Positions 2,186 to 13,013 of a stretch of 35,411 nt of DNA are shown piece by piece; the stretch's first letter is position 1, and every line of letters starts with the position of its first letter. This stretch comes from Trichococcus sp. GTDB taxonomy: Bacteria; Bacillota; Bacilli; Lactobacillales; Aerococcaceae. The stretch covers positions 1-35,411 of the forward strand of contig JASKKA010000004.1 of NCBI GenBank assembly GCA_030153215.1, in the 5' to 3' direction. The notes under the pieces were generated by a model. The model did no database searches. It saw nothing but the letters and a program-made list of their open reading frames with translations, and had not been told where the DNA came from. The position numbers and the translations under genes are program-made.

Positions 2186-2212
2186 GTTTGTTAGTTGAGA
2201 AGGAGCGATCAA

Positions 2213-5200
2213 ATGGCATTATCGAAACATGAATTGTTCCAACAGATGCTGGAACAGATAAATCTGCATCACAAGCCGGAGTACCTGCCGTATTTTGAAA
2301 ACGGGGAAATTGAACGGGTCATTGTGCATAAAAAATCCAAATTATGGTCATTCCAGTTCGTTTTTGATAACGTCCTGCCTTTCGAAGTGTTCAATGCTTT
2401 AATGAGTCATATGAAAATCAAATTCCAATCCATCGCCGCGATCGATTTTCAGATCAAAACAAGGAAACCGATTTTGACGAACGAAAGCATCCTGGATTAT
2501 TGGGAAACTGTCGTCCAACGGAGCAACATATCCTCTCCATTGGTTCAGAGTCTGTTTGCGAAGCATACGCCCGTTGTCCTGAACAGTAAAGTCGTGATCA
2601 GTGTTGAAAACGAGATAACCAAAAACCATTTGGCGGATAACTATTTATCCGTTATCCAACAAAACTATCTGGTGCTAGGATTTCCGAGTTTCCAGATCAC
2701 AATCGAAGTGGACGAGGAAGCCTCCGAGGCCAGAATGGCACAATATTTAGCAAGGAAACAAGAGCAGGATGAAATGTTGGTCAAGCAAGCTGAAGAAGCC
2801 ATCAAGCAGAACCAACAAGACAGACAGCGCATTGACGGCTCACAATCGAAAGCCGGCAACAATGGCCCCTTGCTGATCGGTAGACAAATTTCCGGCAAGG
2901 AAGAAATCAAACAGATGGCTTCGATCACCGAAGAAGAGCGCTCCGTAGTCATTGAAGGCTATATTTTTGACAGTGAAATCCGTGAACTGCGCTCCGGCCG
3001 GAAACTGCTCGTATTCAAAATGACGGATTACACTTCTTCGTTTTCGGTCAAACTGTTCTCGTCGAATGAAACAGATGAACAAAACTTCGAACTGGTCAAA
3101 AAAGGCATCTGGGTTCGTGTACGCGGAAGTGTCCAAGAAGACACCTTCATGCGTGATTTGGTCGTGAATGGCCGTGACGTTAATGAGGTCGCACATGCGG
3201 AACGGAAAGATCGTGCGCCCGAAGACGAAAAAAGGGTCGAATTGCATCTTCATTCAAATATGAGTCAGATGGATGCCACTAACGGAATCGGCGATTTTGT
3301 CAAACAAGCAGCCAAATGGGGTCACAAAGCCATCGCGCTGACTGATCATGCAGCCGCGCAAGCATATCCGGATGCCCATGCAGCCGGAAAAGCGAATAAC
3401 GTGAAAATATTGTACGGAATTGAAGCATACGTCGTCGATGACGGTGTTCCGATAGCCTATAATCCGGTCCATGAAGATCTCAGTGAAGCGACATATGTCG
3501 TATTCGACGTGGAAACGACAGGCTTGTCGGCAGTGTACGATACGATTATCGAGCTGGCAGCTGTAAAAATGTACAAAGGAAATGTCATCGAGACATTCGA
3601 AGAATTCATCAATCCGGGCCACCCCTTATCGCAGACGACCATCCAATTGACCGGCATAACCGATGACATGGTGCGCGACTCTAAGCCGGAAAAAACGGTA
3701 CTCGAGGAATTCGCTGCATTTGCGGAGGGAACGATTCTCGTAGCCCATAACGCCAGTTTTGACATGGGCTTCCTGAACAACAGCTACGAACGCTATGGCA
3801 TGGCCGAGGCACCACAACCGGTGATCGATACCTTGGAGATGTCCCGTTTCTTGCATCCGCAATTGAAATCCCATCGTTTGAACACGTTGGCGAAACGTTA
3901 TGGCGTTGGCTTGGAACAGCATCACCGGGCTGTTTACGATTCCGAAACGACCGGGGCGCTCTGTTGGATATTCCTGAAGGAAGCCCGCGAGGAGCACAAC
4001 ATCCTGTTTCATGATGAACTCAACAAATTCATTGGCGGCGGCGATTCATACAAACGAGCTCGGCCGTTCCATGTAACGATATTGGCAAAAAATCAGGACG
4101 GGCTGAAAGATCTCTTCAAAATCATTTCTGCTTCGAATATCGATTACTATTACCGGACACCGCGCCTTCCGCGCAGCGTGCTGCAAGCGTCCCGTGAGAA
4201 CCTGCTGATCGGTTCCGCCTGCAGTGAAGGCGAAATTTTTGAAGCGATGATGCAAAAAGGGGCGGAAGTAGCGAAAGTGAAAGCCAAGTTCTATGATTAC
4301 ATCGAAGTCATGCCGAAAGAAGTTTATGCTCCGCTCATCACGAAGGAACTGGTGAAGAACGAAAGCGATCTGGAAGAAATCATCACTCAGATTGTTGCCA
4401 TTGGCGATGAATTGGGCAAAACAGTCGTCGCAACCGGGAATGTGCATTATCTGAACAAAGAGGACGCCATCTACCGGGAAATTTTGATCGGCTCCTTGAA
4501 AGTGAACCAAGGAAAAGTCCTGCATCTTCCGGAAGCCCATTTCCGGACGACGGATGAGATGCTGGACTGCTTCTCCTTCCTCGGCAAAGAAAAAGCCAAG
4601 GAAATTGTTGTCTATAATTCCCAGAAAATCGCTGACAGCATTGAAATGATCGTTCCGATCAAGGATCAGTTGTACACGCCGAATATGGAGGGGGCAAATG
4701 AGGAAATCACGCGGCTCTCTTATGATGAAGCCAAACGTCTCTACGGAGAAGAACTCCCTGAACTGGTCGAAAAAAGGTTGGAGAAAGAGCTCAATTCGAT
4801 CATCGGCAACGGCTTCTCGGTCATCTATCTGATTTCCCAAAAACTGGTGCTGAAAAGCAATCAGGACGGCTATCTGGTTGGATCCAGGGGCTCGGTAGGC
4901 TCAAGTTTTGTTGCCACCATGACCGGAATAACGGAGGTCAACCCACTGCCGCCGCATTACCGCTGTCCGGAATGCAAATATTCCTATTTCTATGAAGACG
5001 GTTCGATTGGTTCCGGATATGACCTCGAGAAAAAAGATTGTCCGAAATGCGGAACGGATATGGATCGCGACGGACACGATATCCCGTTCGAAACGTTCCT
5101 TGGTTTCTACGGAGACAAAGTACCCGATATCGACTTGAACTTCTCCGGTGAATACCAAGCGCAAGCGCACGCTTACACGAAAGAGCTTTTCGGTGAAGAA

Positions 5201-6550
5201 TATGTCTACCGCGCCGGAACAATCGGCACGGTTGCGGACAAAACGGCCTATGGTTATGTGAAAGCCTATGAACGGGACCACAATTTCAGATTTTCCTCTG
5301 CAGAAATCGACAGATTGGCCAAGGGCTGTACCGGCGTTAAGCGGACGACCGGGCAACATCCCGGTGGTATCATTGTTATTCCGGACTATATGGATGTCTA
5401 TGATTTCACGCCTATCCAATTTCCGGCGGATGCACAGGATTCCGAGTGGAAAACGACCCACTTTGATTTCCATTCCATTCATGATAATGTATTGAAATTG
5501 GATATACTTGGACACGATGATCCGACTGTTATCCGGATGCTGCAGGATCTTTCGGGGATGGACCCTCAGACGATTCCACCGAATGATCCGGACGTCATGA
5601 CCATATTCGGCAGCACAGATGTACTGGGTGTCACGCCAGAGCAAATTTTCAGCAAAACCGGAACACTGGGAATTCCGGAATTCGGCACGCGTTTTGTCCG
5701 GGGGATGCTGGAGCAGACGAGCCCGAACACCTTTGCGGAATTGCTTCAGATTTCGGGGCTTTCCCACGGGACGGACGTCTACCTGGGCAATGCCGAAACG
5801 CTCATCCGTGAAAACAACATCCCCTTAGCGAAAGTTATCGGCTGTCGTGATGATATTATGGTTTATCTGATCCACCATGGAATGGATGACGGTCTGGCCT
5901 TCAAAATCATGGAGAGTGTCCGTAAAGGCAAAGGGATCCCGGATGATTGGCAGGCAGAGATGCGGGCGAAGGAAATTCCCGAATGGTATATCCAATCGTG
6001 CCTGAAGATCAAATATATGTTCCCAAAAGCCCACGCGGCGGCATATGTGTTGATGGCTTTGCGCGTTGCGTATTTCAAAGTGCATCAACCAATCCTCTAT
6101 TACTGTGCATTCTTTTCGGTGCGCGCGCAGGATTTCGATTTGGTCGCGATGACGCAAGGAAAAGAAATGATCAAGACCCGTATGAAAGAAATCATGGATA
6201 AGGGATTGGAAGCTTCGGTCAAGGAAAAGAATTTGCTGACGGTATTGGAGTTGGCGAATGAGATGGTCGAACGCGGCTTCACCTTCAAGATGGTCGATCT
6301 CGAGAAATCGCATGCGAAGAACTTTGTTATTGAAGGGGATACGCTGATTGCGCCGTTCCGTGCCATTCAAGGGCTAGGAGAAAACGTGGCAAACCAAATT
6401 GTTCAAGCGAGGGAAGATCAGCCGTTTCTGTCAAAAGAGGATTTAGCGACGAGGGGGAAGGTTTCGAAAACGATCATCGATTACATGAATGAAAATGGAG
6501 TGTTGAAAAACTTACCGGACGAAAATCAACTTTCTTTATTTGATTTTTAG
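2213..6550 (+). CDS. polC: DNA polymerase III alpha subunit, PolC type
   Basis: PolC is the replicative polymerase of low-GC Gram-positives, with its proofreading exonuclease built in. The 1445 residues run: N-terminal and OB regions, a PHP domain split around the exonuclease (ELHLHSN near 342, LTDH near 376), a DnaQ-like 3'-5' exonuclease (FDVETTG with D432 and E434; HNASFD further on), a zinc module with C918, C921, C943 and C946, and the polymerase palm (PDIDLNF with D972 and D974). The C-terminus ends QLSLFDF, a beta-clamp binding motif. I chose ATG 2213 because AAGGAG ends 8 bases before it; an upstream in-frame TTG at 2195 would include the ribosome binding site in the gene. Its usual neighbour proS is missing. 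Several long minus-strand frames inside it are shadows. Confidence 0.98.
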
Positions 6551-6587
6551 GAGAAGGCTATTCCAAAGCCTTTAGATTGGTAAGTCC

Positions 6588-6616
6588 TTGCATTTACTGA
6601 CACAATGGTGTATGAT
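6588..6616 (+). promoter_or_regulatory. Sigma-A promoter of the rimP-nusA-infB operon
   Basis: The -35 box TTGCAT (6588-6593) and -10 box TATGAT (6611-6616) are separated by exactly 17 bases. Transcription would start near 6623, immediately upstream of a perfect terminator hairpin and about 100 bases before rimP. Confidence 0.75.
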
Positions 6617-6640
6617 TATATAAGAATAAGTCGTCGGATG

Positions 6641-6667
6641 GAGTGAGCGGAAACGCTCACTCTTTTT
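6641..6667 (+). terminator. Leader terminator (putative attenuator) before rimP
   Basis: A perfect 9-base-pair stem, GAGTGAGCG (6641-6649) and CGCTCACTC (6654-6662), closes a GAAA tetraloop and is followed by TTTTT. It sits about 20 bases downstream of the predicted start of the rimP promoter. It therefore acts in the leader of the nus operon as well as ending any polC read-through. In Bacillus subtilis the nusA operon is autoregulated by NusA-stimulated termination in its leader; this hairpin is the likely counterpart. Confidence 0.8.
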
Positions 6668-6720
6668 ACGCAGTCAGCCAATGAATGACGGTGGTATAGG
6701 ATTGATAAAGGAGGATTTCT

Positions 6721-7194
6721 GTGAGTCGTGTAGTAGATGAAGTTCGAGTAGTGGTTCAGCCAATAGTTGATGAACAGAATTTAGAATTAGTGGATATGGA
6801 ATTTTTGAAGGAAGGGAAGAACTGGTTTCTCAGAATCTATATTGATAAGCCAGGCGGCATCGATATCGAAGAGTGTGCATTGATCAGCGAAAAAGTCAGT
6901 GAAGCATTGGATGCCATCGAGCCGGATCCGATCCCTCAGGCGTATTTCCTGGAGGTGTCCTCGCCAGGCGCAGAGCGTCCATTAAAGACTGAAGCAGATA
7001 TGCAGAATGCCATCGGTAAGTACGTGCATCTGTCCTTCTATCAGGCGATCGATGGAGAAAAATTCTACGAAGGAACGTTGAAGGAAATTAACGATGAATC
7101 CGTCGTATTGACGATCAGAATCAAAACCAGAACAAAAGATATAGAAATCGAAAGAAAACAGATCGCAAACGCAAGATTGGCTATCCAATTTTAA
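6721..7194 (+). CDS. rimP: Ribosome maturation factor RimP
   Basis: RimP binds the 30S subunit and helps its late assembly. The 157-residue protein has the usual two domains: an N-terminal alpha/beta domain with the conserved DMEFLKEG...L-R-I-YIDKPGGIDIEEC stretch, then VSSPGAERPL, and a C-terminal SH3-like barrel (about residues 90-157). The start is GTG 6721, set by a strong AAAGGAGG at 6708-6715. It opens the rimP-nusA-ylxR-ylxQ-infB-rbfA operon; nusA begins 31 bases after its stop. Expression should be subject to the leader terminator at 6641-6667. Confidence 0.95.
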   Translation: MSRVVDEVRVVVQPIVDEQNLELVDMEFLKEGKNWFLRIYIDKPGGIDIEECALISEKVSEALDAIEPDPIPQAYFLEVSSPGAERPLKTEADMQNAIGKYVHLSFYQAIDGEKFYEGTLKEINDESVVLTIRIKTRTKDIEIERKQIANARLAIQF

Positions 7195-7225
7195 TCATTT
7201 TTTGAGATAGGAGTGAACGAGTAAT

Positions 7226-8527
7226 ATGAGCAAAGAAATGTTAAGTGCTCTTGAAGTGTTGGAAAAAGATAAAGGTATTTCAAAAGAGATTGTCATCAGT
7301 GCGCTGGAAGCTGCGCTTGTGTCTGCATACAAACGCAATTATGGACAAGCCCAAAACGTCGAAGTGGAATTCGATACGAAAAAAGGGGATATCCATGTCT
7401 ACGCTGTCAAAGAAGTAGTGGATATGGTATTCGATTCGACTTTGGAAGTAAGTTTGGAGGATGCTCTGCAGATCAATAAGGCTTACGAATTAGGCGACAA
7501 GATCCGTTTTGAGGTCACTCCTAAGGATTTCGGACGGATTGCTGCCCAGACAGCCAAACAGGTCATCATGCAACGTATCCGTGAAGCGGAGCGCAGCATC
7601 GTCTACAATCAATTCATCGCTTATGAAAATGACATTTTGACGGGCGTTGTCGAAAGAATGGACAGCCGTTACATTTATGTTAGCCTAGGCAAAATTGAAG
7701 CAGTCTTGTCCAAGCAGGAGCAGATTCCGAATGAAACGTTCCAACCGCACGACCGCATCAAAGTCTACGTCACAAAAGTCGAAAACACTTCAAAAGGACC
7801 GCAAGTTTTTGTCAGCCGCAGTCATCCCGACCTGCTGAAGAGATTGTTTGAACAAGAAGTTCCTGAAATCTTCGATGGCGTAGTCGAAATCGTTTCGATC
7901 GCACGTGAAGCCGGTGATCGTTCAAAAGTTGCCGTGCGTTCCCGCGATAAGAACGTAGATCCTGTAGGGACTTGCGTAGGACCAAGAGGCCAACGTGTCC
8001 AAGCGATCGTCAACGAATTGCGCGGAGAAAACATGGATATCGTCGAATGGAATGAAGATCCGTCAATCTATATCGGAAATGCGTTGAATCCGGCACAAGT
8101 CGTGAATGTGGATTTCCATCAAGCAGATGGCAGCTGCACAGTCATCGTTCCGGATTACCAATTGTCCCTGGCAATCGGTAAAAAAGGTCAAAATGCGCGC
8201 TTAGCTGCCAAATTGACAGGCTATAAAATCGATATCAAGTCCGAAACGGAGTATAATAAGTTATTGATGGAGTCTGGTGCTCAAAAAGTAGCATCCGATG
8301 AAGAAGATGCTGATACGCTTCATTCTTTCGCCGGCTTGGATAAGATTTTCACGGCTGAAGAAGTCGCTGATGACATCTCGGTCCCAGCGGAAGATACGGA
8401 TTATACGGAAGAATACGAGAACGATGAAAAAATCCTTGATCCTGAAGATGTAGAGCAACTGATCTCGGAAGTCGAGACAGATCCGGAGCAAAGCTATGAT
8501 GAGTTAGCAGAGGACTTTCAAGACTAA
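7226..8527 (+). CDS. nusA: Transcription termination/antitermination factor NusA
   Basis: NusA binds RNA polymerase and nascent RNA, stimulating pausing and intrinsic termination. The 433 residues contain the N-terminal polymerase-binding domain (about 1-130), an S1 domain (about 134-200), and KH1 and KH2. The GxxG loops are visible: GPRG in KH1 near 250 and GKKG in KH2 near 320. After residue 350 comes a tail of about 80 residues very rich in Asp and Glu, longer than in many Firmicute NusA proteins. It may mimic the acidic C-terminal repeats of proteobacterial NusA in function only; no sequence likeness is claimed. The ribosome binding site is TAGGAG. NusA probably feeds back on its own operon through the leader terminator before rimP. 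Confidence 0.97.
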   Translation: MSKEMLSALEVLEKDKGISKEIVISALEAALVSAYKRNYGQAQNVEVEFDTKKGDIHVYAVKEVVDMVFDSTLEVSLEDALQINKAYELGDKIRFEVTPKDFGRIAAQTAKQVIMQRIREAERSIVYNQFIAYENDILTGVVERMDSRYIYVSLGKIEAVLSKQEQIPNETFQPHDRIKVYVTKVENTSKGPQVFVSRSHPDLLKRLFEQEVPEIFDGVVEIVSIAREAGDRSKVAVRSRDKNVDPVGTCVGPRGQRVQAIVNELRGENMDIVEWNEDPSIYIGNALNPAQVVNVDFHQADGSCTVIVPDYQLSLAIGKKGQNARLAAKLTGYKIDIKSETEYNKLLMESGAQKVASDEEDADTLHSFAGLDKIFTAEEVADDISVPAEDTDYTEEYENDEKILDPEDVEQLISEVETDPEQSYDELAEDFQD

Positions 8528-8545
8528 TCAGTGAGGTGAAAGTTT

Positions 8546-8830
8546 ATGAAGACAAGAAAAATTCCGATGAGGAAATGTGTCGTCTCCAATGAGATGAAAC
8601 CAAAAAAAGAGTTGGTCCGCATCGTAAAAAATCAAGCGGGTGAAATTGCCATTGACCCTACCGGCCGCATGAATGGCCGTGGAGCCTATGTCTCTTTGGA
8701 ACCCGCATTGGTGCAGAAGGCTTGGAAACAGCACATTTTGGACAAGCACCTTGAGATCGCCATCAGTGATGCGTTCTATCAGGAGTTATTCGATTATGTC
8801 GAACACCAGAAAGCAAGGAGCTTATTATGA
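8546..8830 (+). CDS. ylxR: YlxR/RnpM family RNA-binding protein
   Basis: This small nucleic-acid-binding protein (94 residues) is conserved between nusA and infB in Firmicutes. It carries the family core M-R-K-C-V at the N-terminus, the PKKELVRIV stretch and the signature DPTGRMNGRGAYVS near residues 37-50. The B. subtilis homologue has been shown to bind RNase P RNA and modulate its activity (renamed RnpM). Its stop codon overlaps the ylxQ start as ATGA at 8827-8830, so the two are translationally coupled. Confidence 0.92.
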   Translation: MKTRKIPMRKCVVSNEMKPKKELVRIVKNQAGEIAIDPTGRMNGRGAYVSLEPALVQKAWKQHILDKHLEIAISDAFYQELFDYVEHQKARSLL

Positions 8831-9135
8831 CACCTGAAGACAAGATGTTGAATTTGCTGGGCTTGGCATTGCGCGCCGGCAAATTGATCACAGGTGAAGA
8901 AATGACCATCAAGTCCATCCAAAAAAATGAAGCGGTCTTCGTCCTATGTGCGACGGACTGCAGTAACAACACCAAAGAAAAATTAGAAAACAAATGCCGC
9001 TATTATGAAGTCCCGTTCCTGGTGCATTTCACTTCGGAACAAATCAGTCAAGCAATAGGCAAGTCCCGTTCCATTTGCGCCTTGACTGATAGAGGATTCG
9101 CTAAAAGTTTCATGCGGCTGAAAGGAACAAAGTAA
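8827..9135 (+). CDS. ylxQ: YlxQ, L7Ae/L30e-like RNA-binding protein
   Basis: The 102-residue protein belongs to the L7Ae/L30e/Gadd45 fold family, whose members bind kink-turn RNAs. The pattern is typical: [16 protein letters not shown] near the N-terminus, a central [14 protein letters not shown], and YYEVPFL. Its precise role between nusA and infB is unknown in the family. It overlaps ylxR by 4 bases and is followed 22 bases later by infB. Confidence 0.9.
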
Positions 9136-9157
9136 TGAGATAAGGGAAGGTGATGAC

Positions 9158-11602
9158 ATGGAAAAAAAACGTGTCTACGAGTATGCAAAAGAACACAAGG
9201 TATCAAGCAAAACGGTGTTGGATAAAGCAAAACAATTGGGGATCGATTATCATAGCCATATGTCAACCATGGAAGACGGAGACATCAAAAAATTGAATCA
9301 GTCCATCTCTTCCGCTGCTGGAAATCAGGTTGCCAAGCCAAGTGCACCGCAGTCCAATGCGACACAGAAAAAGCAACCAGCACAAAACAAAAAGGCGCCT
9401 GCAACAGAAACACATAAACCTACTGATAAGAGTGAACTGAGGAAAAACACAGACATGAAAAATAAACCATTGCATCCTTCTTCGAATCAGAAAAACGGTT
9501 CCGAAAATAAAGGACAAACAAGAACTACTGCAGAAAAGAATACAAATCGGCCGGCGCAAGCCACAAGCCAACCTGGACAAAATCGTCCAAATACTAAAAT
9601 GAATCGAGTTGACTCTGTTTCGCCAAACAAATCAAACAACAAACCAGTGCAGAAAACTGCAAACACGAATACTACCACTAATGCGCCAGCCAAATCAAAC
9701 CGTCCAGCATACGGTCAAAATTCAGGCGGATCCAATCAGCGTAATCAAGGTCGCGGCAACAATCCTTACAACAAAAACAAACGCTCTAAATTCAAAAAAG
9801 GCACGACTAAGCAAGGACCGGCAGTGCCACCGCGCAAATTCCGTGAGTTACCTGAAACATTTGTCTACACAGATGGCATGAATGTAATGGAAGTTGCCAA
9901 AAAGTTGCATCGTGAACCAGCAGAAATCATCAAAAAGTTATTCCTGATGGGTATCATGGTTACGCAAAACCAAGCACTAGGAAAAGACGCTTTGGAATTA
10001 TTGGCTGCTGATTATGGAATCGAAGCCGAAGAAAAAATCGTGCAGGATATTTCCGATCTGGACAGCTATTTCGAAGTGGAAGAAAATCCGGATGAATTGG
10101 TTGCAAGACCACCTGTTGTCACAATCATGGGACACGTCGATCACGGTAAAACGACACTTTTGGATTCACTGCGCAACACGAACGTGATCCAAACCGAAGC
10201 AGGCGGAATCACGCAGCATATCGGAGCTTATCAGGTCAAAATCGACGGTAAGCCGATCACTTTCCTTGATACGCCAGGACATGCTGCATTCACGACCATG
10301 CGCGCACGCGGAGCGGATGTCACAGACATCACGATTATTGTTGTCGCAGCTGACGATGGTGTGATGCCGCAAACAATCGAAGCCATCAACCATGCGAAAG
10401 CGGCTGATGTTCCTATCATTGTTGCCGTAAACAAAATCGACAAACCGACAGCAAATCCGGATCGCGTCATGCAGGAACTGTCCGATCAAGGATTGGTTCC
10501 TGAGGCTTGGGGCGGCGAAACAATTTTCGTCAACATCTCGGCCAAGTTCGGACAAGGGATTGATGAATTGTTGGAAATGATCCTGTTGGTTGCTGAAGTA
10601 CAGGAACTGAAAGCTAATCCGAATCGTTTAGCGATCGGTTCTGTAATTGAAGCCCGCTTGGATAAATCCAAAGGCCCGATTGCTACCGTACTGGTGCAGG
10701 CAGGCACTTTGAAAATCGGGGATCCGATCGTAGTCGGAAATACGCATGGCCGCGTTCGTGTAATGACAAACGATCAAGGCAGACGTGTAAAAACAGCTGG
10801 ACCTGCAATGCCGGTCGAAATCACAGGTTTGAATGCAGCACCACAAGCCGGGGACCATTTTGTTGTCTTTGAAGATGAGAAAACAGCGCGTCAAGCTGGT
10901 GAAGAACGTGCGAAACGTGCCCTTATGGAACAACGTTCAACGCAGAACCGCGTGACCCTGGACAACTTGTTCTCCAGCTTGAAAGACGGAGAGCTTAAGG
11001 AAGTCAATGTCATCATCAAAGCTGACGTGCAAGGTTCGGTTGAAGCACTGGCAGCGAGCTTGCAAAAAATCGAAGTTGAAGGTGTGCGCGTAAAAATCGT
11101 TCACTCAGCAGCAGGAGCAATCAACGAGAGTGACGTTACCTTGGCTGCAGCCAGCAACGCGATCATGATCGGTTTCAACGTTCGTCCGACTCCTCAAGCG
11201 AAGATCCAAGCAGAGAGCGAAAATGTGGACATCCGTCTGCACCGAATCATCTACAATGCCATTGATGAAATCGAAACAGCGATGAAAGGTATGCTGGATC
11301 CTGAATTCGAAGAGCAAGTAACTGGTCAAGCGCTTATCCGTGAGACTTACAAAGTATCTAAAGTCGGAACAATCGGCGGCGCGTTCGTAACGGATGGCTA
11401 CATCTCAAGAAACAGCAGCATCCGTATCATCCGTGACAATATCGTCATTTTTGACGGCAAACTTGCCAGCCTGAAGCGATTCAAGGATGATGCCAAAGAA
11501 GTTAAAAAAGGCTTCGAATGTGGTGTTATGATTGAAGATTACAACGATATCCGCATCGATGACGTCATCGAAGCGTACCATATGGTGGAAATCAAGAAAT
11601 AA
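9158..11602 (+). CDS. infB: Translation initiation factor IF-2
   Basis: IF-2 is the GTPase that brings initiator tRNA to the 30S subunit and promotes subunit joining. The 814 residues start with a small IF2-N domain (1-50). A linker of about 160 residues follows that is extremely rich in Asn, Gln, Lys, Pro and Thr and looks disordered. Then come a second IF2-N domain, the G domain (GHVDHGKT at 325-332, [12 protein letters not shown]), and domains II-IV ending in the initiator-tRNA-binding C2 barrel. The start ATG has AAGGTGATGAC upstream. Only the linker is unlike homologues; such linkers vary freely between species. Confidence 0.98.
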
Positions 11603-11640
11603 AATGCCACAACAATCGAGCTATTGAGAGGTGAACCGAA

Positions 11641-11997
11641 ATGGCTAATTTCAGAGCCGGAAGAATAAGACAAGAAATACAACGCGAAGTGAATGACATC
11701 TTGGCTAAACGTGTAAAAGATCCGCGGGTTGCGAACGTAAATATTACCGATGTGGAAATCACAGGAGATTTGCAGCAAGCAACCATCTATTACAGTACAT
11801 TGTCGGAACTTGCCAGCGATCGCGAAAAAACGCAACAAGGTTTGGATAAGGCAACTGGCCTTGTCCGCAAAGAGCTTGGGACGCGTCTGTCACTTTACAA
11901 GACACCAGAATTGATTTTCAAAAGAGACGAATCGGTGGCTTACGGCAGCAAAATCGATGAATTGATCCGCAAGATGCACGAGGATGAAAAGAAATAA
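11641..11997 (+). CDS. rbfA: Ribosome-binding factor A
   Basis: RbfA is a KH-fold cold-adaptation factor for 16S rRNA 5' maturation in the 30S subunit. The 118 residues show the family pattern: R-x-x-R-I-x-Q-E-I-Q-R-E at the N-terminus, DPRV...[10 protein letters not shown] in the middle, and [10 protein letters not shown] near the C-terminus. AGAGGTG precedes the start. It is the last gene of the nus operon here. In most Firmicutes truB and ribF follow, but here a very strong terminator follows directly. Confidence 0.95.
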
Positions 11998-12011
11998 ATT
12001 CTAATTTGCGC

Positions 12012-12061
12012 AAAAAAAGGCAGGCACAATGATCGCTATGATCGTTGTGCCTGCCTTTTTT
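12012..12061 (+). terminator. Strong bidirectional terminator after rbfA
   Basis: The arms AAAAAAAGGCAGGCACAA and TTGTGCCTGCCTTTTTT pair perfectly, with an inner GATC-GATC pairing and a GCTAT loop. The A-run on one side and T-run on the other make it work in both directions, so it also backs up the convergent C39-like gene. Confidence 0.92.
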
Positions 12062-12164
12062 GCATCAATGATCGCAATCCAGCACTTAAAGGCGAATAAA
12101 ATTGCCTATATTGAATTTTTGCGCTCGAAATGACCCGGACTGTGTACTTACTGACTATAAGTGC

Positions 12165-12956
12165 TCAGGGATCAAATATATTGGCTTTTGTCTGCATTTC
12201 ATTCCGAGCAGGCAGCCCTGCTTCGATGTAGATGGCTTGCTTGCCCATCTATTCCCATGCAGAGATGAAGTTCTGCCGATCGATTTCCTGGTCCTTTTGT
12301 CCATAAGGACTGTTTATGAACAGACTGTCAGCATCGTAACCGACGACCACCACGCTGTGCATGATGTAGCTGATGTTGACCGGACCTGTCGGCGTTTGCC
12401 AGACCTCCAGTTCCTCATCAGGTGAAAAAGTGGTCGTCGTGACGACCCAAACAGGATAGCCCTGATCCAAGGCAGCGATAACTGAATCAAATTCCTGCCC
12501 GCTGATATCCTTCACGCGATTGGATGGGATGTATTCGGATGCCAAGACCGCGATGGGGCCATGGTAGACGCAAAAACCGTAGTCCGTCCCGGTCACATCG
12601 CCGACAAAAGCTTTGTTCGGGTTGCCGTGCAGCCCGTTTTCGTAGTAGATCGGAACGACCGGAAATTTGTCCGCAAGCTTGTCCGCAAGCTCGTTTTTCG
12701 TGACCATGATCCCGTTGTACTGCAGAATCATCGCAAGCGAAGTGACTTCGCAGCCGAGCAGCAGGGCCGGCGGATCCAACTGATTCAGGAGCGGCACATC
12801 CAACCGCACCTCATCGGCAGGTCCGGGTTGAATGATTGTGCCGGATTCGGCGGTCGCAATTTCGCCCTCTTCGGGTTCCATGCGGATGAGACTCAGAGGC
12901 AGCAGAGTGAGTAAAATGCCAGAAAACAGTGTGAAATTGAACATGCCCATTCTCAT
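12165..12956 (-). pseudogene. C39-like cysteine peptidase cut short by an in-frame amber codon
   Basis: The readable protein (12249-12956, 235 residues) has an N-terminal membrane or signal helix (about 7-25), then a papain-like C39_2 domain with candidate catalytic residues C69 (GCEVTSLAM), H200 (IMHSVVVVGYD) and N215 (INSPYG). Family members are extracellular or membrane-anchored peptidases of unknown substrate. The frame stops at TAG (12249-12251) after ISAWE. Beyond it the same frame encodes MGKQAIYIEAGLPAR and more, 27 codons to a TGA at 12165-12167. Homologues typically continue W-E-Q-M-G-x-Q-A, so a CAG Gln codon has probably become TAG. AAGGAGG (12963-12969) sets the start at ATG 12956. 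A perfect 12-base tandem repeat (12667-12690) encodes duplicated LADK. The truncated protein retains the catalytic residues and might still fold. Confidence 0.75.
12667..12690. repeat. 12-base tandem duplication inside the C39-like gene
   Basis: TTGTCCGCAAGC occurs twice in direct succession, giving a four-residue repeat in the encoded protein without changing the frame. Confidence 0.8.
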
Positions 12957-13013
12957 CATGATCCTCCTTAACCGGAATGGCTGGCTGCGCTTATGCATAT
13001 GCTTTACGCCTAC

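Follow-up and report, generated by a model that had tools for sequence, protein, structure and literature searches.

A conserved promoter and early terminator ahead of rimP-nusA-infB in Trichococcus: a likely antiterminator-free attenuator with NusA feedback

The leader of the rimP-nusA-infB operon in a Trichococcus genome is best read as an attenuator that operates without an antiterminator and is subject to feedback by NusA, a reading that we consider quite probable. The leader was analysed within a stretch of 35,411 nucleotides (contig JASKKA010000004.1 of assembly GCA_030153215.1, from a genome with a completeness of 51.5%), the whole of which is referred to here as the window. Promoter and terminator are present in the sequence and conserved together with rimP, compensatory changes maintain the pairing of the hairpin, and computation gives no sign of an antiterminator. 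The proposed mechanism is that a sigma-A-type promoter would fire into a terminator that starts about 18 bases past the transcription start, where some transcripts would stop after about 45 bases and the remaining ones would read through into rimP-nusA-ylxR-L7Ae-infB-rbfA. As no alternative RNA fold is evident, the level of read-through would be set by a factor acting in trans; the operon's own NusA would stimulate termination in the leader, such that the whole operon would go down when NusA is high and up when it is low. If this feedback is true, transcription termination would be coupled to translation capacity through a single short leader, since the operon encodes IF-2 and two ribosome-assembly factors alongside NusA.

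The features of the region are listed in Table 1. The initial annotation had described a TTGCAT-N17-TATGAT promoter, a perfect 9-bp terminator capped by GAAA and a downstream six-gene operon that includes nusA. All three stand: the promoter (6588-6616) is found with conserved spacing to the stem in the leaders of relatives, the terminator (6641-6667) is rare in shuffled sequence and folds strongly, and the Pfam domains follow in the order RimP, NusA, YlxR, L7Ae family, IF-2 and RbfA. The L7Ae-family gene we take to be ylxQ-like. Promoter and hairpin both lie in the 170-base gap between polC and rimP (6550 to 6721), with 58 bases between the end of the stem and the rimP start codon.

Table 1. 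Features of the rimP-nusA-infB leader and its surroundings in the window.
Feature	Position	Strand	Basis or remark
polC	2195..6550	+	Pfam PolC domains; upstream neighbour, outside the switch
-35 element TTGCAT	6588..6593	+	read from the sequence; -35 conservation
-10 element TATGAT	6611..6616	+	17-base spacer; TATGAT/TATAAT in 13/13 genus loci
putative transcription start	~6623	+	inferred, ~7 bases past -10
intrinsic terminator, 5' arm GAGTGAGCG	6641-6649	+	sequence, shuffles, fold, conservation, compensatory changes
terminator loop GAAA	6650-6653	+	
terminator 3' arm CGCTCACTC	6654-6662	+	
terminator T-run TTTTT	6663-6667	+	
Shine-Dalgarno AAAGGAGG of rimP	6707..6714	+	read from the sequence
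rimP	6721..7194	+	start codon GTG; Pfam RimP_N, DUF150_C
nusA	7226..8527	+	Pfam NusA_N, S1, KH_5
ylxR	8546..8830	+	Pfam YlxR
L7Ae-family gene	8827..9135	+	Pfam Ribosomal_L7Ae
infB (IF-2)	9158..11602	+	Pfam IF-2
rbfA	11641..11997	+	Pfam RBFA

The hairpin is confirmed as a real feature. A stem of nine Watson-Crick pairs followed by a T-run (loop of 3-8, at least five T in six) arose in one of 20,000 dinucleotide shuffles of the polC-rimP gap, and the hairpin at 6641-6662 is the sole match to these strict criteria on both strands of the whole window; a looser stem (six pairs, G-U allowed) appeared in 92 of 5,000 shuffles of the same gap. The hairpin energy is -16.0 kcal/mol. The RNA of 46 bases from the putative start (6623-6668) folds at -18.7 kcal/mol (z -4.77), which none of 200 shuffles equalled, and in the predicted fold of 6623-6720 (z -2.92) bases near the 5' end pair with bases at the Shine-Dalgarno end of the leader while the terminator hairpin is retained. 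A generic scan of positions 5500-13000 also lists the hairpin, and in that region there is no excess over chance of terminator-like sites (9 against 8.2 expected) or promoter-like sites (8 against 9.8 expected). Because the hairpin is strong, any need for NusA would have its source in the shortness of the U-tract (TTTTT followed by ACG) and not in a weak stem.

The promoter is absent from that scan, as TTGCAT matches TTGACA at only three of six positions, and its identification therefore rests on conservation and not on its own score. Promoters in related leaders were placed with a detector built on sigma-A features, which adds to the score for CA at -35 positions 4-5 and takes the best raw score among about 42 positions. 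The -35 element begins with TTGC in 45, TTGA in 7 and TTGT in 7 of 59 leaders from elsewhere in the class Bacilli (class leaders), and with TTGC in 22, TTGA in 12, TTGT in 8 and TTTA in 2 of 44 leaders from the order Lactobacillales (order leaders), a likeness that is partly by construction, given that the detector is tuned to sigma-A and rewards CA. Most detected promoters have a 17-base spacer and a TG ahead of the -10 element. The distance from the -10 element to the stem, which the detector constrains only to its search range of 18-60 bases, is narrow, at 24 bases in the window, 21-32 in the order leaders (16 in one of them) and 30-43 in 58 class leaders. A second promoter candidate seen by eye, CTGACA-N16-TATAAG, was dropped because its elements vary among the 13 genus loci, neither being kept in all of them, unlike TATGAT/TATAAT. 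A further motif, GG[N][AT]AT[AG]CT, lies within 20 bases past the -10 element, in or near the transcribed leader, in 26 of the 59 class leaders and in none of the 44 order leaders; its carriers are non-Lactobacillales Bacilli among L067-L130 (e.g. L100, L106 and L092), where it may act as a binding site or cause an early pause.

The initial annotation had seen no alternative antiterminator pairing, and this is borne out by both folding and pairing scores. Pairing of the leader with the 5' arm, measured against shuffles, has a mean z of -0.02 in the 59 class leaders and 0.15 in the 44 order leaders, with 0.62 in the window; values of -1.645 or lower occur in four class and three order leaders (7 of 103), and pairing with the 5' arm is seen in single leaders such as L084 (z -2.73) and L097 (z -2.79). 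The window's 6623-6649 taken alone has no notable fold, 189 of 200 shuffles folding at least as well. An antiterminator is accordingly rejected as a systematic feature, since 5'-arm pairing with the leader does not rise above shuffles. The nusA autoregulation of B. subtilis is likewise said, in the 2016 work of Mondal, to operate without an antiterminator.

If read-through is set in trans, we infer NusA to be the factor sensed in Trichococcus. The window terminator has a distal interruption of the U-tract and a stem whose basal pair is G-C, and all 38 of the order rows described below carry a non-U in tail positions 6-8 (counted from rimP leaders alone). In the excerpted text of a 2021 eLife paper, distal interruptions of the U-tract are frequent among NusA-dependent terminators, and dependence on NusA alone is suggested for terminators with such a basal pair. 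The strength of the window hairpin counts against NusA dependence, for which a 2025 review, as excerpted, stresses weak hairpins or interrupted U-tracts (PMC12288461).

Attenuation could also be real with RimP, IF-2, YlxR or the L7Ae-like protein as the sensed factor in place of NusA, for which we see a small chance; all these candidates are encoded in the operon, and the conserved stem sequence suggests a specific binder. Binding of an L7Ae-type protein, however, needs a kink-turn, which is not available in a perfect stem without an internal loop. RimP is mentioned too by Naville and Gautheret (2010, PMC2965389, in excerpt), but the factor published for B. subtilis is NusA (PMC12288461).

RimP was found in all 60 genomes of the order, including the window's own, and the upstream sequence was read in all 60. 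Setting aside 11 near-identical genus rows (L003-L013) leaves 49 order rows, of which 38 agree with the window in 15 or more of the 18 stem letters and 13 in all 18; at the remaining 11 loci the scripts placed other stems ahead of rimP, those of L057 and L061 being imperfect. Only four of 342 cells are unpaired in the 38 rows. A comparison of the leader across Lactobacillales for covariation in the hairpin, as proposed in the initial annotation, was made on an alignment of 36 distinct rows (without repeats and loci L030, L044, L051 and L055-L061; one row, L020, has its loop out of register). Changes on both sides of a pair, i.e. compensatory changes, are found in five of nine pairs; none of 500 shuffles, a control that ignores the relatedness of the rows, is as high or reaches any of five covariation measures, and slid registers fall far below. 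Paired cells amount to 99.1% of this alignment, a figure that is partly built in since the scripts that choose rows reward pairing and T content, and some of them also likeness to the consensus. Loops are of the GNRA type in 24 of 38 order rows and 24 of 61 class rows. Three genomes of group g24 (L058, L059 and L060) have another stem, in which GAGGCGAAG or a similar arm faces CTTCGCCTC, 0-14 bases from the script-called rimP start; the choice of start is uncertain here, and at so short a distance the hairpin may interact with the ribosome site.

The window-type pattern GAGTGAGCGN{3,8}YGCTCRCTYTT occurs in 31 of 60 relatives, each time at the rimP place (compared by eye), with a single additional place (in G040) and with no genome matching the backwards control. 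In a collection of 84,980 species, GAGTGAGCGGNRACGCTCACTCTTTTT was found in 23 stretches, in 22 of which it sits 26-80 bases before a RimP match; the 23rd, from T. ilyis, ends short of RimP, and in the matching contig of a relative (G008:C38) the hairpin adjoins rimP. Two titles in these data deserve mention. L143 (titled Sedimentibacter sp. SX930) matches G012:C19, a relative in the window's genus, and has a RimP of 98% identity, and its label looks wrong; L154 (titled Streptococcus sp. 263_SSPC) has a window-type leader, with a RimP 61% identical to that of the window.

This distribution bears on whether the hairpin is merely the terminator of polC, with rimP transcribed by read-through or from another promoter. 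In the window polC is indeed the immediate upstream neighbour, as it is in 31 of the 60 order loci. In the other 29 loci, many of them stretches of only about 450-730 bases, there is no upstream polC match, and 19 of these retain 15 or more of the 18 stem letters, so that the hairpin travels with rimP and not with polC. As the window-type pattern is moreover found at rimP with one exception, and a conserved promoter precedes the hairpin, we regard a polC terminator as very unlikely. Slighter still is the prospect that the inverted repeat near +18, a perfect 9-4-9 arrangement, is a DNA operator that binds a repressor just past the promoter, because 27 wobble cells in the 38 order rows preserve RNA pairing but break DNA symmetry, loop length ranges from 4 to 10 bases and the tail is rich in T, with a mean of 4.6 T among the first five positions. 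Equally poor are the chances that the hairpin, lying some 18 bases from the putative 5' end, merely stabilises the mRNA there with negligible termination, in view of the T-rich tail after the stem in the order rows and of early termination ahead of the same operon in S. agalactiae (PMC4448216, in excerpt).

Most of the Bacilli leaders examined have a related hairpin and promoter ahead of rimP. Outside Lactobacillales, 64 loci were taken from 64 of 112 class genomes (40 chosen for family spread), and GAGTGGG(3-7)CCC[AG]CTC is present in 60 of them. Stems placed before rimP by script begin with GAGTGGG in 58 loci and GAGTAGG in three, with an unrelated stem in one (L127); L116 and L128, missed by the script, both carry the GAGTGGG pattern. 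Genome-wide, GAGTGGGN{3,7}CCCRCTCTT matches 102 of 121 class genomes (backwards control 4 of 121), i.e. none of nine from the window's order and 102 of 112 outside it, with a second place in at least three (G091, G134 and G135); proximity to rimP at class level was examined for the 64 loci. In the phylum search, 136 of 199 genomes match (backwards control 7 of 199), at least four of them with a second place. Twenty phylum places from 19 genomes were picked among the matches listed, and 18 were called by script as upstream of RimP; by its coordinates L160 also lies before RimP once the hairpin is read on the RimP strand, and L169 lies away from RimP in a genome that has another copy at RimP. 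Copies of the motif that have no adjacent RimP are rare (L131-L134 and L169) and are probably ordinary terminators, as is likely from L133, which lies 37 bases past the end of an open frame.

The two arms of the stem differ in how freely they vary. In the 38 order rows, departures from the consensus occupy 10 of 342 cells in the 5' arm and 37 of 342 in the 3' arm, and wobble cells arise 26 times by a change in the 3' arm and once by a change in the 5' arm; parsimony over seven pairs on a RimP tree of 62 tips gives 8 changes in the 5' arm and 23 in the 3' arm. Part of this bias is expected, since composition opens about twice as many wobbles on the 3' side and the cells are not independent. Pair 4 is U-A in 46, U-G in 15 and C-G in none of 61 class rows. 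The asymmetry is compatible with recognition of the 5' arm.

The 3' arm with the U-tract (6654-6668, CGCTCACTCTTTTTA) resembles a boxA of the rRNA type, with A replacing G at one position. The rRNA-type boxA is GCUCUUU, and its counterpart in the 3' arm is CRCTCTTT; the boxA-like G is found in 14 of 38 order rows and 15 of 61 class rows, the window having A.

The least explained feature is that the stem letters are fixed across the phylum, usually once per genome, and this suggests recognition of the sequence itself, for which Naville and Gautheret argued. A fixed stem sequence exceeds the needs of generic stimulation by NusA. Tentatively, the leader stem may be more than a terminator, namely a sequence-specific binding site in nascent RNA with a 5' arm that a single protein recognises, in that case most likely NusA; it would then be a regulatory word, kept throughout the phylum and usually once per genome, that measures NusA at its own operon. 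Why a terminator keeps the letters GAGTG... across a phylum, though pairing alone permits many others, is an old question made testable here.

The arrangement of promoter, terminator and operon claimed in the initial annotation has published counterparts (PMC2965389, PMC4448216 and PMC12288461, each in excerpt), and no paper with both Trichococcus and nusA was found in the literature searched. The rimP-leader of Naville and Gautheret (2010, PMC2965389) is a short terminator before rimP-nusA-infB with a conserved stem sequence, for which, in the excerpted text, no antiterminator is visible in its general form and NusA is the best candidate factor. The window shares the short terminator before the rimP operon and the lack of a visible antiterminator, and its T-stretched hairpin lies within the 4-130 bases before rimP of that description. 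Its stem GAGTGAGCG/CGCTCACTC, however, differs from the rimP-leader signature GGGc...gCCC; most other Bacilli examined have GAGTGGG/CCC[AG]CTC, and the order relatives L044, L051 and L055 have GTGGGC...GCCCAC. In Rfam, the window has no match at the gathering cut-off, and none in 6450-6900 up to an E value of 10; nor was there a match at that cut-off in the loci of 20 relatives searched, out of 60. Family RF01770, named for rimP like the window's gene, scores over its cut-off in none of 101 class genomes and in one of 14 control genomes, E. coli, with three weaker matches (G049, G088 and G147), none at the rimP places of those genomes. Because the stem departs from the signature and the window scores below the cut-off, we keep the leader out of the strict GGGc...gCCC motif and of RF01770.

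A nearer parallel within Lactobacillales is S. agalactiae gbs0413-gbs0418 (Rosinski-Chupin 2015, PMC4448216), which encodes RimP, NusA, IF2, RbfA and two further proteins and, in the excerpted text, yields, from one start, a long transcript as well as a short RNA, with NusA feedback proposed. Both leaders place an early terminator before the rimP-nusA operon; termination is 31 bases past the start in S. agalactiae, as against about 45 estimated in the window. For B. subtilis, control of nusA by NusA-stimulated termination in its leader, on which the initial annotation had drawn, is stated in the 2025 review (PMC12288461), citing Mondal 2016; the review adds that NusA stimulates about 75% of intrinsic terminators in that species. 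There the case rests on a NusA depletion strain, whereas in Trichococcus the role of NusA is argued from the leader. The leader belongs to a known kind that is strikingly conserved, and its value lies in the clear comparative support that it gives and in the pointer to a fixed stem sequence.
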